A stretch of DNA of 47,932 nt from Phycisphaerales bacterium. Lineage in GTDB: Bacteria > Planctomycetota > Phycisphaerae > Phycisphaerales > UBA1924. Every line of letters starts with the position of its first letter. The first letter of the stretch is position 1. Position numbers and translations under genes: made by a program. Positions 4,740 through 11,804 of this stretch are shown in pieces. The stretch lies in contig RECY01000045.1 in NCBI GenBank assembly GCA_007693785.1, positions 1 to 47,932 on the forward strand, given 5' to 3'. The notes below the pieces were generated by a model that was not told where the DNA came from, did no database searches, and saw nothing but the letters and a program-made list of their open reading frames with translations.

Positions 4740-4814
4740 GCCCGGGCCTGATGGCACGCGGGGGCGCGTGCACGGGATCGCTCCGCGCCTTACATTGCCG
4801 CAGGAGGTTACGTG

Positions 4815-5063
4815 ATGCCCGCCCCGACCCGTCTCCGCGTGAAAGGCATGAGTTGCGACGGCTGCGCCCGGGCCGTGACCCGGGCGGTCATGTCGGTCGA
4901 AGGCGTCGAGCGCGCCGAGGTGAGTCTCGGCGAGGGCTGGGCGTCGTACGAGGGCTCGGCCGAGCCCGAGGCGGTCGCGGACGCGATCGAGGACGTCGGC
5001 TTCGAGGCGATCCCGCCGGGCGATGAACTGGGCGATGAACTGGGCGACAAACCGGGCAACTGA
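4815..5063 (+). CDS. Heavy-metal-associated domain protein (CopZ-like)
   Basis: A small 82-residue HMA-fold protein. The metal site GMSCDGC (Cys14 and Cys17) follows the first strand, and the pattern of EGVERAEVSLGEG and then EAVADAIEDVGFEA matches copper/heavy-metal chaperones. An AGGAGG at 4802-4807 supports the ATG at 4815 rather than the GTG at 4812. The C-terminus is a short acidic repeat GDELGDELGDKPGN, written by a 12-bp tandem repeat (units at 5018-5029 and 5030-5041, then a degraded third). No copper ATPase lies beside it, so its partner is elsewhere. It converges on the lipoprotein gene 17 bp away. Confidence 0.85.
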   Translation: MPAPTRLRVKGMSCDGCARAVTRAVMSVEGVERAEVSLGEGWASYEGSAEPEAVADAIEDVGFEAIPPGDELGDELGDKPGN

Positions 5064-5080
5064 ACGATCGACGGCGAACG

Positions 5081-5599
5081 CTACTCTGCGCCGAGCGCGA
5101 CCGGCTCCATCGCGAGCATTGCGCGGAGCTGGGCGGACCAGGTTTCGCCCCCGTCGGCGTCGAGCAGTCGGAACTCGGTCATCAGCTCGGCCGTCTCCCC
5201 GCGCCCGACGCGGAACGACTCGGCGTGGAGGGTGCGCGTCGCCTCACGATCGCTGACAATCGTGATCGCGGGGTTGGACGCCGCCTCGTGCTCGACCTGG
5301 CGGACCACCACGTCGCGGAAGGTCTGATACGCCCGACGGCTGAGCGAGCGGGTCTGGTTTTCAAAGTCGCCGATCACGAACGTGAGCTCGCCCGATTGCT
5401 GAGCGTGGGCGCGGAGTCGCTGGACGAGTTGGGCCGCGACTTCTTTGCCGCAGCGTTGGGCGTCGGCGTGGGTGACGCTGACGTCGCCAAGATCCTGGGG
5501 GGTTTGAGTGGATGAACAGGCGGTCAGGGCGATCGTGGCGAGTGCGCCCGCGGCACAGGCCGCCCACCGGGTGATGTGCTGGATGGCGCGATCGCGCAT
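5081..5599 (-). CDS. Lipoprotein, possibly LpoB-like
   Basis: A 172-residue lipoprotein. After a basic start and a hydrophobic stretch, the lipobox LTAC places the lipidated Cys at residue 28. The mature part carries ADAQRCGKEVAAQLVQRL, FVIGDFENQTRSLSRRAYQ and the strand AITIVSDREATRTL, an order that recalls LpoB/CsgG-type domains (activators of penicillin-binding proteins), but the match is by eye only. The ATG at 5599 is favoured over the upstream frame because GGAGGA lies about 9 bp before it. The nearest upstream feature is tRNA-Met on the same strand. Confidence 0.6.
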   Translation of the reverse strand: MRDRAIQHITRWAACAAGALATIALTACSSTQTPQDLGDVSVTHADAQRCGKEVAAQLVQRLRAHAQQSGELTFVIGDFENQTRSLSRRAYQTFRDVVVRQVEHEAASNPAITIVSDREATRTLHAESFRVGRGETAELMTEFRLLDADGGETWSAQLRAMLAMEPVALGAE

Positions 5600-5778
5600 G
5601 GTGTTCTTCCTCCGCCGGTGCAACGCGCACGGGGCGGTGGGTGTTCCGCACCGGACGCGTATTGATTGCCCCCTTGAGACGGATACAGCCTATTCATCGG
5701 CACACCCATCTGGCCCGCGGGGTGGGACCGGTCCGCCCGTGCGGGGCGTGGATCGGGTGTGACGGACGGGAAAGGCAA

Positions 5779-5975: not shown

Positions 5976-6305
5976 TCAGACGTTCTTCTGATCGCTCGTT
6001 TCGAGCTTCGAGGGGGCGACGGGAGCGGCCGAGTCGGCCGTGGTGTGAGGGAGCGTGCCGCCGGGTCGTTGCTGATCGAGCTGGGGCTGGTCCTTCTTGT
6101 CGCCCTTGTCGGCGTTGACGCCGGCCTCGATCTCGTCGTCGATCCCGCGGAGCCCGCGTTTGAACTCGACGATCGCCTTGCCGACGCCTCGCCCGACCTC
6201 GGGGAGGCGTCGCCCGAAGATCAGCAGCCCGATCACGAGGATGATGATCAGCTCGGTGGTGCCGATGTTCTGGATGAAGGCCAGGGTCTGCCCGAGAGTC
6301 TGCAT
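5976..6305 (-). CDS. tatA: Twin-arginine translocase subunit TatA/TatE
   Basis: A 109-residue Tat pore subunit. The N-terminus has the short membrane helix TELIIILVIGLLIFG (about residues 17-31), immediately followed by the hinge and amphipathic helix GRRLPEVGRGVGKAIVEFKR, which is diagnostic of TatA/TatE. The remaining 55 residues are polar and low in complexity, as in other TatA tails. No tatB or tatC is in the window. The gene lies 123 bp from tRNA-Met and 157 bp from folD, all on the minus strand. Confidence 0.92.
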   Translation of the reverse strand: MQTLGQTLAFIQNIGTTELIIILVIGLLIFGRRLPEVGRGVGKAIVEFKRGLRGIDDEIEAGVNADKGDKKDQPQLDQQRPGGTLPHTTADSAAPVAPSKLETSDQKNV

Positions 6306-6462
6306 GCACGCTCCGTCTGCGCCGCCATCGGCCGAGAGTGTGAGTCGGCGCGGAGCACCGACACTGGATTCAAGGGCACCCCGCCCCGTCGGTCAACGCC
6401 CCGCGCGGGCCGCCCATGCCCTTCCGGCACAAAAACGATGCGAACTCGGGTGTCGCCTCGGA

Positions 6463-7398
6463 TCAAGAAGGGCCCTTGGAGCCCTCCACGAACGGGCCAG
6501 CGGCTCCGGCGCGGTCCGGGGGCGGGTTTTCGCGACGGAGCGAGGCCTCGGCCGCTTCCACGACGTTGCTGTAGAGCATCGCGACGGTCATCGGCCCCAC
6601 GCCGCCGGGCACCGGGCTGATCCACCCCGCGACCCGTGCGACTTTTTCGTACACCACGTCCCCCACCGTCATCCGTTTCCCGTCCGGGCCCTCCACACGG
6701 TTGACCCCGACGTCGATGACGACCGCGCCGGGCTTGACCATGTCGGCCGTCAGGAGCCCCGGGACCCCCGCCGCCGCGACGACCACGTCGCCCGTTCGGC
6801 ACAAGTCCTCCAGCCCCCACGTGAACTTGTTGCAGCTCACGACGGTCGCGTCGCGTCGCATCAGGAGCACCGCGATCGGCTTGCCGACGACGTTGCTCGC
6901 CCCGACGACGATCACGCGCTTGCCGCGGAGCTCGACCTCGGTGTGCTCGATCATGCGCACAACCGCGAGCGCCGTGCAGGGCGCCAGGCTCGAACGCCCG
7001 TAGACGACGTTACCGATGTTCGCGGGGTTGACGCCCTCGGCGTCCTTCTCCGGGGCGATCCGGCGCTGCACGGCGTACGCGTCCACGCCCTCGGGCAGGG
7101 GCATGTGGAGCATGATCGCGCGGACGTCCTCGTCGCTGTTCAACGCCTCCACCGCCGCACGGATCGAGGCTTGGTCCGAGCCGCGGGGCAGCTCGTGCAA
7201 GCGGTACTCGATGCCCAGATCCTCGGCGGTGCGGGCCTGATTCTCGGCGTAAACGCGGGCCCCGTTGTCGCCGGAATCGACCAGCACCGCGTCGAGGCGG
7301 ACCGACGCGCCGGCGTCGCGGATCGTGCGCACGCGGGATCGCAGGTTCTGGCGAACCAGCTCCGAGAGTGCGCGGCCGTCGATGACGCGGGCGGTCAT
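6463..7398 (-). CDS. folD: FolD-family methylenetetrahydrofolate dehydrogenase/cyclohydrolase with altered active site
   Basis: A 311-residue protein of the FolD family, which converts 5,10-methylene-THF to 10-formyl-THF. The NAD(P)-binding half is typical: VIVVGASNVVGKPIAVLL, the strand VVIDVGVNR and the C-terminal PVPGGVGPMTVAML. The catalytic half is not: the YxxxK motif reads YAENQ (Tyr50, Gln54 in place of the catalytic Lys), VQLPLP reads LHMPLP (His98), KDVDG reads KDAEG (Glu121) and PCTP reads PCTA. The ATG at 7398 avoids overlap with the upstream gene. Family membership is certain; whether it is bifunctional is doubtful. Confidence 0.9.
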   Translation of the reverse strand: MTARVIDGRALSELVRQNLRSRVRTIRDAGASVRLDAVLVDSGDNGARVYAENQARTAEDLGIEYRLHELPRGSDQASIRAAVEALNSDEDVRAIMLHMPLPEGVDAYAVQRRIAPEKDAEGVNPANIGNVVYGRSSLAPCTALAVVRMIEHTEVELRGKRVIVVGASNVVGKPIAVLLMRRDATVVSCNKFTWGLEDLCRTGDVVVAAAGVPGLLTADMVKPGAVVIDVGVNRVEGPDGKRMTVGDVVYEKVARVAGWISPVPGGVGPMTVAMLYSNVVEAAEASLRRENPPPDRAGAAGPFVEGSKGPS

Positions 7399-7433
7399 AC
7401 GGCATCGTAGGGGCACGCGAGGACGCCGACGGT

Positions 7434-9053
7434 TCAGTCTGGCGACCGCATCCACCAGACCGGTCGCCACGGGAACTCGTCGATGCGCGACACCGTGACG
7501 TCGTCGCGCTCGAGCACGACGCTCTCGCCCGGGCCGGGCGCGAGGCCCTGGTTTCGCTCGTACAAGACAAAATCACCGATGCGCGGCTCGCGCACACGCC
7601 CGCCGGGCTCGGCGCCTTCGAGACCGGGTGGCTGCGCGGCCCACCAGTTTTCCCACACGTAGATGCGGGCCGCGTCGCCGGCTTCGAGCCCGCCCATAAA
7701 GAGCACGGGCCCCTCGGCTTGCGGATCGGCGGGATCGACCAGCGGGGCGTTCCGGAGCCAGGCGCGGAGGGCGGCCCACTCCGGGGCGATCGGGCGTTGG
7801 ACGCGGACGGGCAGAGCCGCGAAGACGATCGCGCCGATCACCAGCACCGCCGGGCCTTTGCGGACCATCGCCCGCTCGACGGGCCTGAGCCAGGCCCACC
7901 CCCACCGGACGAGCCAGGCGGCCGACATCCACGCGACGCCCGCGTGGACGGGGAGCATGTACCGATCTCGCTTCTCGGCGAAGAGGCTGAGCAGGACCAT
8001 CCAGGCGACGGTCCAGACGAGCCCGAGACGGATCAGCGGCTCGTGGCGGCCCGGGCTCTTGGCGCGCCAAAGCGAGACGATCGCGAGAGCCGCGAAGAGC
8101 GTCCAGGGCCAGCCGTGTGCGCCGAGTCGGTAGAGATAGAACCACCAAGGCTTGACCGACGCGCCGGTCGGATCGAGCTCCCCGGCGGCTCGGCTCGCGA
8201 TCTCGGCGCCGAAGTACTGGGCGAGGAAATCGTTGCCGTGGATCTGCCACATCGAGAGGTGCCACGGGGCGGCGATGAGCATCGCGACCGCGATCGCGCC
8301 CGCGAACGAGGCGAGCACGCGGGCACGGGAGGGGGGCACCAGCGTCCCGCCCGGAAAGATCGCCCACGCGGCGAGGATGGGAATCGCCAGCAGCCCGACG
8401 AGGGGCTTGGTCATGAGCGCGAGCCCGACGGGCAGGCCGCAGGCGATAACCCAGCGGGCCCGCCCTGTGCGCACGCCCCTCGCGACCAGCCAGGCGGCGA
8501 GCAGGAGGAACGCGGTCTGCCACATATCGAGCGAGACTTCGCGTGTGCGCCGGAAGAACTCGTAAGTGAGCACGAGGGCGGCTCCGGCGAGCAGGCCCGC
8601 GCGACGCCCGCTGAGCTCGCGGGCGACGCCGACCGCGCCGATCGCGCACAACGCGGCGGCCGCGACGGTCGGCAGACGCGCCATCGCGAGCGTCACATAC
8701 ACCCGATCGAGCACGAAGCCGTGGATCCAGAACACCAGCGGCGGCTTGTTGAAATACCGCATGCCGTCCCAGGCCCAGAGCGTCCAGAGCTCGCCCGTGC
8801 GCCAGGCCTGGACACCGATCGCGGCGTACCACGCCTGATCGCCCCGCCAGTCGCCCTGATCCAGATGCGGAAGCGTCAGGCAGGCGAGAACGAGGACCGG
8901 GAGCACCCAGACCCGCCCCGCGACGAGGCGTCGTCGCCACCAAGCCCGGACGCGGGAGCACGCGCGGGCGGGGGTGCTGGACGCGCGCACGCGCGTCTCC
9001 CGGCGGGCGGACGGTCCGTCGGTCTGCAAGGGCCCATCCCTCCGGATCGACAC
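7434..9053 (-). CDS. Membrane glycosyltransferase, GT39/ArnT-like
   Basis: A 539-residue polytopic protein of the dolichyl-phosphate-mannose/lipid-A-Ara4N transferase type, which moves a sugar from a polyprenyl-phosphate donor outside the membrane. After the first helix comes the acidic loop GDWRGDQAWYAAIG and then MRYFNKPPLVFWIHG, the usual first-loop landmarks. About ten hydrophobic segments follow, with REVSLDMWQTAFLLLAAWL and MTKPLVGLLAIP in the expected places, then a soluble C-terminus. The first possible start is GTG at 9053; a later TTG at 9029 is an alternative, since the first 45 residues are basic and poorly constrained. The acceptor is unknown. Confidence 0.8.
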   Translation of the reverse strand: MSIRRDGPLQTDGPSARRETRVRASSTPARACSRVRAWWRRRLVAGRVWVLPVLVLACLTLPHLDQGDWRGDQAWYAAIGVQAWRTGELWTLWAWDGMRYFNKPPLVFWIHGFVLDRVYVTLAMARLPTVAAAALCAIGAVGVARELSGRRAGLLAGAALVLTYEFFRRTREVSLDMWQTAFLLLAAWLVARGVRTGRARWVIACGLPVGLALMTKPLVGLLAIPILAAWAIFPGGTLVPPSRARVLASFAGAIAVAMLIAAPWHLSMWQIHGNDFLAQYFGAEIASRAAGELDPTGASVKPWWFYLYRLGAHGWPWTLFAALAIVSLWRAKSPGRHEPLIRLGLVWTVAWMVLLSLFAEKRDRYMLPVHAGVAWMSAAWLVRWGWAWLRPVERAMVRKGPAVLVIGAIVFAALPVRVQRPIAPEWAALRAWLRNAPLVDPADPQAEGPVLFMGGLEAGDAARIYVWENWWAAQPPGLEGAEPGGRVREPRIGDFVLYERNQGLAPGPGESVVLERDDVTVSRIDEFPWRPVWWMRSPD

Positions 9054-9093
9054 CCGGGGGCGGGCCGCCCGGGCGGACAGAACGAGCGTCGGG

Positions 9094-9867
9094 TTAGGAC
9101 GAGCGGCTGTTGGCCGGGCGGAGCGCGTCGGCCAATTCCTTGGGGAGGAACAGGATCACCCCGCAAGAGGGGCAGAAATTGACGGTGCCTTTGCTGAGCA
9201 CGGCGCTCATCGCCTCGACGGGCAGCTCCATCATGCACGACCCGCAGGTGTACTCGTGGCGCCGACGGTCCTGCTCCTCGATCGGGGCCATCGGGTCCTC
9301 GTCGGGGTGGCGGGCGATCCGCTTGTCGTAGTCTCGCAAGGCGTCGGCGGGGGCGAGGCCCCGGAGGCGGTCGCGGTCGGCCTCGAGTTCCTTCAGACGC
9401 CCGGCGATCTCGCCCTCACGCTCGGTGCGCTCGCCCTCGGCGACGTGGCACATCTTGCTCCGCTCGGCGATCGCCTCTTCCAGAGCCGCCAGCTCGCCCT
9501 TGAGTTCGTCGATCTGCTGGAGGTATTCCAGAGCCGAGGACTCGGCCTTGTCCTTATCGGCCTTAAAGGTGTTCACCTCGGTCAGGAAGGCTTTGTACTC
9601 GCGGGCGGTCTTGGCGAGGTTCATCTGCTCGCGGAGGGTGTTGACCTTCTCCTCGAGGCGGGCGGCCTCGCCCTCGTGCTCGCCGGCTTTCGCCTGGAGT
9701 TGGCGGAGCTGCCGATCGGCGGCTTCCTTCTTCTGCGTCAGGCTCGCAAGCTGCTGGCTCTGGGCCCCGAGGAACCGCTCGGCCTGGTTCAGCCTCGACC
9801 GCAAGCCGCGGAGTTGCTTGTCCACCTCGAAGACCTGCCGAAGCCGCTCCGTCGCCGTTTCGCTCAT
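9094..9867 (-). CDS. CdsZ-family coiled-coil zinc-ribbon protein
   Basis: A 257-residue protein: a long antiparallel coiled coil (about residues 5-175, rich in E, K, R, Q and L) followed by a C4 zinc ribbon with YTCGSC and NFCPSCG separated by about 20 residues. This is the architecture of the family formerly called DUF164, a nucleic-acid-binding group. A GGGAG about 7 bp upstream supports the ATG at 9867. The gene may be co-transcribed with the glycosyltransferase downstream, with a 40-bp gap. The cellular role of this copy cannot be read from the sequence. Confidence 0.82.
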   Translation of the reverse strand: MSETATERLRQVFEVDKQLRGLRSRLNQAERFLGAQSQQLASLTQKKEAADRQLRQLQAKAGEHEGEAARLEEKVNTLREQMNLAKTAREYKAFLTEVNTFKADKDKAESSALEYLQQIDELKGELAALEEAIAERSKMCHVAEGERTEREGEIAGRLKELEADRDRLRGLAPADALRDYDKRIARHPDEDPMAPIEEQDRRRHEYTCGSCMMELPVEAMSAVLSKGTVNFCPSCGVILFLPKELADALRPANSRSS

Positions 9868-9926
9868 CCAGCACTCCCGTCCGTTTCATCCAGCATAGCA
9901 CAACCGCCGGAGAAGGGGGGCGTCAT

Positions 9927-10829
9927 TCATGACACCAGTGTCAGCATCCAGTACGCGACCGGGGCGACCAGCAGCGGGGAATCGACCACGTCGATCACCC
10001 CGCCGAAACCCGGGAGCGTGCGGCTCGAGTCCTTCGCACCCGCGTCCCGCTTGACCATGCTCGCGACCAGGTCCCCGAGCTGCCCGACCAGCCCGAAGAC
10101 CGCCCCCATCACCGCCCCGGCCCCGATGCCGATCGGCGTCCCGAGCCACGCCCCGAGCGCCCACGCCCCCACCGCACCGAGCAGGGCGCTCGCGAGCACG
10201 CCCCCGACCAGACCCTCCCATGTCTTGCCCGGGCTGAGCCAGACGATCAGCTTGTGGCGGCCGATCGCGCGCCCGGTGAAGTAAGCGCCGATATCGCACC
10301 CCTTGGTGGTGAGCAGGATCCAGAGGATGAGCCAGGCCGAGTGCTCGCGACGGATCGCGAGCAGGAAGCCGAACGTCAGCCCGAGATAGACGAACGCGAG
10401 GAGCACGCCGCCGGTCGCGGCGACCACGCCCTCGACGGACTGGTGGCGCGAAAAATACACGACCGAGGCGAGGAGCATGACGATCGCGGCCGAGCTGACG
10501 ATCGCGACGCTGCGGACGGCATCGACTTCTTCGGGAATCAGGCAGCTCACGCCGATGCCCAGGGCCGCGCCGAACGCGCTGAGCCAGCGGCTGGAGGCCA
10601 GCCCGACGCGGGCGAGCAGACCCGCCAATTCGATCGCCGCGAGGACCGCGATCGGCGTCGCGATCAGGACGATGATCGTGCCCGGGGGAAAGGTCTCGGT
10701 CCCGATCAGGCGGGCGGCCCATCCGGGCGTCGCGACCGTGTACAGCCACTCGTCGAGCCACAGCACCCCGAGCAACGCCAGGATGAGCACGGGACCGAGG
10801 AGCAGGCGTTCGCGCAGCATGCCGGGCAT
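9927..10829 (-). CDS. cdsA: Phosphatidate cytidylyltransferase
   Basis: An integral membrane enzyme of about 300 residues that makes CDP-diacylglycerol from phosphatidate and CTP. About eight hydrophobic helices precede the C-terminal signature SMVKRDAGAKDSSRTLPGFG followed by GVIDVVDS. In the usual signature this reads PGHGG.(L/I)DR.DS, so the His and Arg positions are Phe and Val here. TTKGCDIGAYFTGR and LSPGKTWEG are further family landmarks. The start is uncertain: the frame can begin at TTG 10850, ATG 10829 or ATG 10820, none with a good ribosome site. It lies just downstream of uppS on the same strand. Confidence 0.88.
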   Translation of the reverse strand: MPGMLRERLLLGPVLILALLGVLWLDEWLYTVATPGWAARLIGTETFPPGTIIVLIATPIAVLAAIELAGLLARVGLASSRWLSAFGAALGIGVSCLIPEEVDAVRSVAIVSSAAIVMLLASVVYFSRHQSVEGVVAATGGVLLAFVYLGLTFGFLLAIRREHSAWLILWILLTTKGCDIGAYFTGRAIGRHKLIVWLSPGKTWEGLVGGVLASALLGAVGAWALGAWLGTPIGIGAGAVMGAVFGLVGQLGDLVASMVKRDAGAKDSSRTLPGFGGVIDVVDSPLLVAPVAYWMLTLVS

Positions 10830-10888
10830 CGTACCGGGCTGAGGTGCCAAAACGACCCGGGGCGCGCGGTTGGTTGTGCGCGGTTGGT

Positions 10889-11782
10889 TCAGGCGGTCGG
10901 CGTGTTGAGGCCGCCGAAGCGCCGGTCGCGGGCGGCGTAGGCCGTGATCGCCTGGCGCAACGCCGCCTCTCGAAAATCAGGCCAGTACGTCTCGGTGACG
11001 TACAGCTCGGCGTAGCTGATCTGCCACAACAGGTAGTTGCTGACGCGCAGCTCGCCGGCGGTGCGGATCAACAGGTCGGGGTCCGGCAGGTCGGGGGCGT
11101 AGAGATGGGCCGCGACGGTCGATTCGTTGACGTCCGCCGGATCGAGCTCGCCCGCGCGTACGCGTTCGGCGATGCACCGGGCGGCGTCGGCGATCTCTGA
11201 TCGCGAGCCGTAGTTGAGCGCGAGGCAGAGCGTCGCGCGAGTGCAGTCGCTGGTGAGCTCTTCGAGCATCGCGACGCCCTTGCGGACGGGCTCGGGTAGG
11301 CCCTCGCGCCGCCCGATGACGCGGAAGCGGACGCCGTTGCGGAGGAGCAGGTCGCGGTTGCCCTCCAGGTAGGCCTCGCAGAGGGCCATGAGCGCCTCGA
11401 CCTCCTCCGGCGGGCGCTTCCAGTTCTCCAGGCTGAACGAGTAGAGCGTGAGCACCTCGACGCCCATCCGTCCGGCGGCCTCGACCACCGTGCGCACAGA
11501 CGCGGCGCCGTTGCGGTGCCCGAAGATGCGCGGGAAGCCGCGCTCCTGGGCCCAGCGCCCGTTGCCGTCCATGATGATCGCGACGTGGCGCGGGACGCGG
11601 CTCGGGGGGACGCCCGGCAAGTGACGGAGCGGGTCGGCCTCGGGGTTGCGGGCCTGGATCGCGGCCAGGGCTCGGCGGTCGGTTTCACTGAGCGTGGGCG
11701 CGCCATCGCGGGCGGGCGCTGGCGAGGGCGTCGGCGTCGCGGGCGTGTTCGGCTGGATGGTGTGCAGACTGGCGTCGGTCAT
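10889..11782 (-). CDS. uppS: Isoprenyl (undecaprenyl) diphosphate synthase
   Basis: A 297-residue cis-prenyltransferase that builds the C55 lipid carrier for cell-wall sugars. The catalytic P-loop HVAIIMDGNGRWAQ contains Asp72; further landmarks are RIFGHRNGAASVR, TLYSFSLENWKRP, LALNYGSRSEI and DLLIRTAGELRVSNYLLWQ. About 65 residues rich in Pro, Thr and Ala precede the domain, longer than in most bacterial enzymes. The ATG at 11782 is chosen over a GTG 12 bp upstream. Its position directly before cdsA matches the common uppS-cdsA order, a membrane and cell-envelope operon. Confidence 0.94.
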   Translation of the reverse strand: MTDASLHTIQPNTPATPTPSPAPARDGAPTLSETDRRALAAIQARNPEADPLRHLPGVPPSRVPRHVAIIMDGNGRWAQERGFPRIFGHRNGAASVRTVVEAAGRMGVEVLTLYSFSLENWKRPPEEVEALMALCEAYLEGNRDLLLRNGVRFRVIGRREGLPEPVRKGVAMLEELTSDCTRATLCLALNYGSRSEIADAARCIAERVRAGELDPADVNESTVAAHLYAPDLPDPDLLIRTAGELRVSNYLLWQISYAELYVTETYWPDFREAALRQAITAYAARDRRFGGLNTPTA

Positions 11783-11804
11783 CCGTTCCCCCACACGCGA
11801 GCGG

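Follow-up and report, generated by a model that had tools for sequence, protein, structure and literature searches.

The question raised by this locus is whether a FolD protein that departs from its family at four active-site landmarks still carries both FolD activities, dehydrogenase and cyclohydrolase, or whether the second is left to another protein. The window, i.e. the whole stretch of DNA that was analysed (47,932 nucleotides), holds the gene and the codons concerned as follows:

6463-7398, minus strand (7398 to 6463): folD, 311 aa from ATG, predicted monofunctional methylene-THF dehydrogenase of the Gln54/Glu121 type
7249-7251, minus strand: Tyr50 codon, retained, folate stacking residue by homology
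7237-7239, minus strand: Gln54 codon, replacing the cyclohydrolase Lys
7105-7107, minus strand: His98 codon, replacing Gln
7036-7038, minus strand: Glu121 codon, replacing Asp
6970-6972, minus strand: Ala143 codon (PCTA), replacing Pro

The FolD protein of the window

The four replacements had been noted from the sequence alone in the preliminary description, and were confirmed by alignment to FolDs of known structure, which places them in the motifs Y50-A-E-N-Q54, MLHMPLP (H98), DAEGVNP (E121) and PCTA (A143). Solved FolD structures align over almost its whole length (best E 2.3e-67), and the protein belongs to the FolD family, with PF00763 (84.6 bits) and PF02882 (199.6 bits) both over their Pfam cut-offs. 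The cofactor half is intact, in agreement with the preliminary description. The motif of bifunctional FolDs (YxxxK with Lys54, and Gln98) is absent, Gln54 and His98 being found instead. The best-matching NCBIfam models carry the name bifunctional, a label that probably misnames this protein and those of many related genomes; the protein falls below the curated cut-off of each of the 25 models listed, out of 31 matched.

The gene lies in a same-strand run (5976-11794, minus) comprising a uppS-like gene (PF01255), a cdsA-like gene (PF01148), a gene for a zinc-ribbon/coiled-coil protein that reaches no Pfam cut-off, a PMT_2 glycosyltransferase, folD and a TatA-like gene, with 36 bases between the end of the glycosyltransferase gene and the folD start codon. 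Two other frames were recorded nearby: a frame of 180 aa that begins like a lipoprotein and matches no Pfam family (5081-5623, minus), and an 83-aa copper-chaperone-like protein with a heavy-metal-associated (HMA) domain (4812-5063, plus).

In the genome of the window (G000; 3.06 Mb, 95.5% complete), the PF00763 search returned the FolD of the window as its one match, and no second FolD was found. Gln54, His98 and Glu121 were present in each of the 46 genomes of its family covered by both search and typing, which rules out a chance change or a damaged copy; position 143 was Ala in 44 of these genomes and Gly in 2. The four substitutions are shared across a clade and do not mark a single aberrant copy. 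The closest relatives found in named genomes (65-66% identity) come from a MAG named 'Phycisphaerales bacterium' and from two MAGs labelled Planctomycetia and Planctomycetaceae.

Two FolD types and their association with FTCD_C genes

FolD typing covered 277 copies from 265 genomes, with identical motifs in one genome counted once; these 265 are a part of the searched genomes with FolD of the class, probably Phycisphaerae. Two genomes in which residue 54 could not be typed (G058, G082) and two whose sequence was not retrieved (G267, G312) are outside this set, as are two genomes with an FTCD_C domain and no FolD match (G161, G230). The copies were distributed as 182 with Gln54 and Glu121, 93 with Lys54 and Asp121, one with Arg54 and Glu121 (G141) and one with Glu54 and Asp121 (G176), so that Glu121 goes with Gln (182) or Arg (1), and Asp121 with Lys in 93 of 94 copies. 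Tyr50 was retained in 181/182 Gln54/Glu121 copies and in 93/93 Lys54 copies, and the latter all had Gln98 and Pro143. Among the 182 Gln54/Glu121 copies, position 98 was His in 131, Gln in 32, Asn in 13, Leu in 3, and Phe, Met or Ser in one each; position 143 was Ala in 173, Pro in 6, Gly in 2 and Ser in 1. Of the four positions that the preliminary description proposed to align in planctomycete relatives, 54 and 121 separate the types fully; among Gln54 copies, 98 varies and 143 is mostly Ala. His98 as the defining change was rejected, since six other residues stand there alongside Gln54.

A scan of all positions covered 185 Gln54-type and 128 Lys54-type sequences, 313 in total, after exclusion of repeats and fragments (hand-made list) and of identical sequences. 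Columns 54, 65, 111 and 121 showed no overlap between the types, columns 37, 143 and 145 nearly separated them, and Tyr50, Lys118, Asp119 and the GGVG block were common to both. Across 151 genomes of the order, the FolD of the window shares 56-74% identity with the copies of families f1, f4, f5 and f26, versus 33-41% with those of f2 and f3 among the matches listed. A FastTree tree was built from 312 FolDs, including 41 named-genome loci less two fragments, and excluding repeat loci, fragments and sequences shorter than 250 aa. All 184 Gln54-type sequences formed one group (184/184, support 99), and the state of residue 54 (Lys or not) changed twice, one change being the Glu54 copy. The Gln54 FolD thus looks like a single lineage in this sample; the tree is unrooted and does not give the direction of change.

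The FolDs of three own-family genomes matched in two pieces within one open frame, the break falling near residues 155-166, which suggests an insertion where the cofactor domain begins:

G256, contig C3, 255769-256689: two-piece FolD L164
G277, contig C31, 27821-28744: two-piece FolD L163
G280, contig C103, 38364-39323: two-piece FolD L165

The preliminary description had foreseen that a dehydrogenase-only FolD would need a separate cyclohydrolase, and a candidate, carrying the FTCD_C domain (PF04961), was found on another contig of the same genome:

G000, contig C8, 196833-197342 (contig other than that of folD): FchA-type gene (FTCD_C), 213-aa frame

Its sole NCBIfam match is FchA, at 85 bits against a cut-off of 275, i.e. 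as a divergent member. Its best PDB matches are the methenyl-THF cyclohydrolase 7vg4 (E 3e-16), then 1o5h, and the motif PTPGGG occurs in all three. With a Gln54 FolD and an FTCD_C gene that is not fused to FTCD, the genome has the genes expected of a system of monofunctional FolD plus FchA.

Of the 151 genomes of the order, 98 carried the domain (97 over cut-off): 98/98 of f1, f4, f5 and f26 and 0/53 of f2 and f3, of which 48/53 were typed, all as Lys54. In the class sample the domain was present in 146/198 genomes. Over the 265 typed genomes, FTCD_C accompanied a non-Lys54 FolD in 178/183 genomes, counting as present one match below cut-off (G286; strict count 177/183), versus 1/82 genomes with Lys54 only. 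The former divide into 168/173 genomes with a non-Lys54 FolD alone and 10/10 with both types. Fisher's test gave p 7e-61, a value that ignores shared descent, so that the count statistics are inflated.

The non-Lys54 genomes lacking a match are G163, G162, G178 and G092 (58, 67, 53 and 79% complete) and G117 (93%). In the sole Lys54-only genome with the domain (G142), it shares a 574-codon open frame with the FTCD formiminotransferase domain, so no separate FchA is shown there. G176 runs counter to the rule, with Gln54 and Glu54 FolDs and FTCD_C solely as an FTCD fusion, and the FTCD_C match of G277 is cut at a contig end. The stand-alone state of FTCD_C was read directly in G000 and G146, in f1 from the absence of PF02971, and in most other genomes from the size of the open frame. 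PF02971 (FTCD formiminotransferase) was found in 15 of the 65 genomes tested, including G142, G176, G198 and G200, a test that covered few families and not f4. It had no match in the 46/46 own-family genomes searched, and an assignment of FTCD_C to the FTCD of histidine breakdown was therefore rejected for this family.

Apparent swaps of FolD type together with FTCD_C were found within families and even within one genus, and weigh more than the p value. In f22, Lys54 without FTCD_C is the state of seven typed genomes, among them G158, which belongs to the same genus as G146. The single FolD of G146 (Gln54/Met98/Glu121/Ala143) directly follows a 239-codon FTCD_C frame, with no PF02971 match in this genome. 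Conversely, 23/24 typed genomes of f10 have Gln54, 21 of these 23 with FTCD_C, and the remaining genome (G086) has Lys54, no FTCD_C and a FolD whose nearest neighbours are the f2 and f3 copies. The families f2 and f3 versus f1, f4, f5 and f26 form a further contrast in both features. Among the genomes with both FolD types, PF02971 was present in 9/10 (all except G065). In G198 and G200, with one FolD of each type apiece, the Lys54 copy adjoins the FTCD fusion gene (L063 and L062, respectively), and in G089 it lies within about 0.9 kb of FTCD; these positions suggest that such a copy serves methenyl-THF from histidine breakdown.

Outside the class, 38 of 41 named-genome FolD loci have Lys54 with Gln98. 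In the 30 of these loci's genomes that were searched, FTCD_C was present in 3/3 with a Gln54 FolD and in 3/27 with Lys54 (two Blastococcus and one acidobacterium); given the latter, the tight rule holds as a finding for this class.

A probable route to 10-formyl-THF and alternative explanations

The genome of the window encodes PurH and carries two Formyl_trans_N genes; the enzymes of both kinds draw on 10-formyl-THF. Searches of this genome for formate-THF ligase (FTHFS, PF01268), for the FTCD formiminotransferase domain (PF02971) and, through Mch (PF02289), for a methanopterin-linked C1 pathway gave no match. FolD followed by FchA would thus be the only enzymatic route to 10-formyl-THF found there. 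The genome check proposed at the outset returned an FchA-type gene and neither a second FolD nor the ligase. Across the order, the ligase was over cut-off in 13/151 genomes, four of them with FTCD_C (G280, G298, G125, G269); the pairing can therefore coexist with the ligase. Mch itself was found in 12/151 genomes of the order, all in f3.

The FolD of the window is very probably a monofunctional methylene-THF dehydrogenase, hydrolysis being carried out by the FchA-type protein, as predicted from gene content and aligned residues. The dehydrogenase-only option of the preliminary description is thereby supported, through the FchA-type gene of this genome and the tracking of non-Lys54 FolD by FTCD_C across 265 genomes. 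In this reading, Tyr50 and Glu121 would hold the folate and the unchanged Rossmann half the NAD(P), and the enzyme would oxidise 5,10-methylene-THF to 5,10-methenyl-THF. The change of Lys54 to Gln would abolish methenyl-THF hydrolysis at a useful rate, by analogy with published E. coli mutants, and the protein encoded on contig C8 would hydrolyse methenyl-THF, supplying PurH and the formyl-transfer enzymes with 10-formyl-THF.

Human K56Q variants lose cyclohydrolase activity. For E. coli FolD, PMC5688156 gives K54N as without detectable cyclohydrolase and with about 19% dehydrogenase, and Q98H as with about 1% cyclohydrolase and about 8% dehydrogenase. The second mutant counts against the main reading: as Q98H alone leaves 8% dehydrogenase, His98 must be tolerated differently in the FolD of the window. 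It is very unlikely that the FolD is still bifunctional, with another residue, e.g. His98, standing in for Lys54 and FchA as an extra. The presence of His98 in 131/182 Gln54/Glu121 copies and throughout the own family is consistent with such a substitute, as are simulations (PMC9173628) that could neither exclude nor settle a catalytic role of the lysine; the variety of residues at 98 in other Gln54 copies, the loss of activity in K54N, and a gain and loss of FTCD_C in step with Lys54, which this explanation does not lead one to expect, argue against it.

A combination of a FolD lacking cyclohydrolase, an FchA-like protein with some other function and spontaneous hydrolysis of methenyl-THF is highly improbable. 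The divergence of the FchA of this genome would fit, and spontaneous hydrolysis is invoked, in PMC5688156, for the viability of the E. coli mutants, but an unrelated protein leaves unexplained why FTCD_C follows FolD type, down to the gene adjoining folD in G146. The least probable explanation is that the enzyme acts on another pterin or has a new role, both of which the preliminary description had put forward. The four active-site changes and the type-specific residues 65 and 111 could be read in this way. Against it, Tyr50, Lys118, Asp119 and the GGVG block are kept in both types, this is the sole FolD found in a genome with PurH and two Formyl_trans_N genes, and Mch is without a match; the suggestions of another folate or pterin and of a new role are consequently unsupported.

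Significance and comparison with known systems

Beyond the dehydrogenase reading, 10-formyl-THF synthesis across the class may be organised in two interchangeable modules (a bifunctional Lys54 FolD versus an ancient Gln54/Glu121 FolD plus FchA) that swap as units, perhaps by transfer of adjacent pairs, mostly without formate-THF ligase, the split having been favoured by immunity to natural inhibitors such as carolacton through loss of Lys54, with FchA restoring hydrolysis. Taken as a whole this is unlikely; the genomes lend good support to the modules, and the inhibitor origin of the split is a guess. Natural insensitivity to carolacton is predicted for the FolD of the window, because the dehydrogenase of E. 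coli K54N is insensitive to this FolD inhibitor (PMC5688156). Gln54 with Glu121 would let FolD activity be read from sequence. The FchA pairing, through its apparent swaps within families and even one genus, offers a natural experiment in the splitting and rejoining of a two-activity enzyme. Among the titles listed by searches whose coverage leaves out most subscription journals, no paper on this pairing was found; PMC12213060 names fchA and folD among the Wood-Ljungdahl genes of a consortium that includes a Phycisphaerales-related genome.

With the bifunctional FolDs (E. coli FolD, human MTHFD1 DC domain), the protein shares the two-domain fold, the length, Tyr50, Lys118-Asp119 and the PVPGGVGPMT block; it differs in Gln54 (Lys), His98 (Gln), Glu121 (Asp) and PCTA (PCTP), and in the separate FchA-type gene of its genome. 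PMC6443876 outlines the YxxxK motif and what Gln100 and Asp125 do in human MTHFD1. Yeast NAD-dependent Mtd1 (PDB 1edz) is likewise a FolD relative without cyclohydrolase, as judged from titles cited in PMC6443876 and PMC11064299, but is far more distant (E 5.6e-14, partial match). The FTCD_C protein of the genome has FchA as its best curated and structural match (7vg4), and the FTCD cyclodeaminase domain (1o5h, 1tt9) is also among the closest known systems; the protein is divergent, and the genome has no FTCD formiminotransferase domain.

A parallel in function would be Clostridium perfringens, whose FolD is said, in work by Aluri et al. in 2016, to be monofunctional, the second step being carried out by FchA. 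The likeness lies in a dehydrogenase-only FolD and an FchA cyclohydrolase, reported for Clostridium and predicted here. C. perfringens also uses formate-THF ligase (Fhs), whereas the genome of the window has no Fhs match, and Fhs is over cut-off in 4/98 FTCD_C-bearing genomes of the order. A monofunctional FolD with FchA is therefore a known principle; the widespread Gln54/Glu121 subfamily, its pairing with FchA and its apparent swaps with the bifunctional form within the class represent a new form of it.
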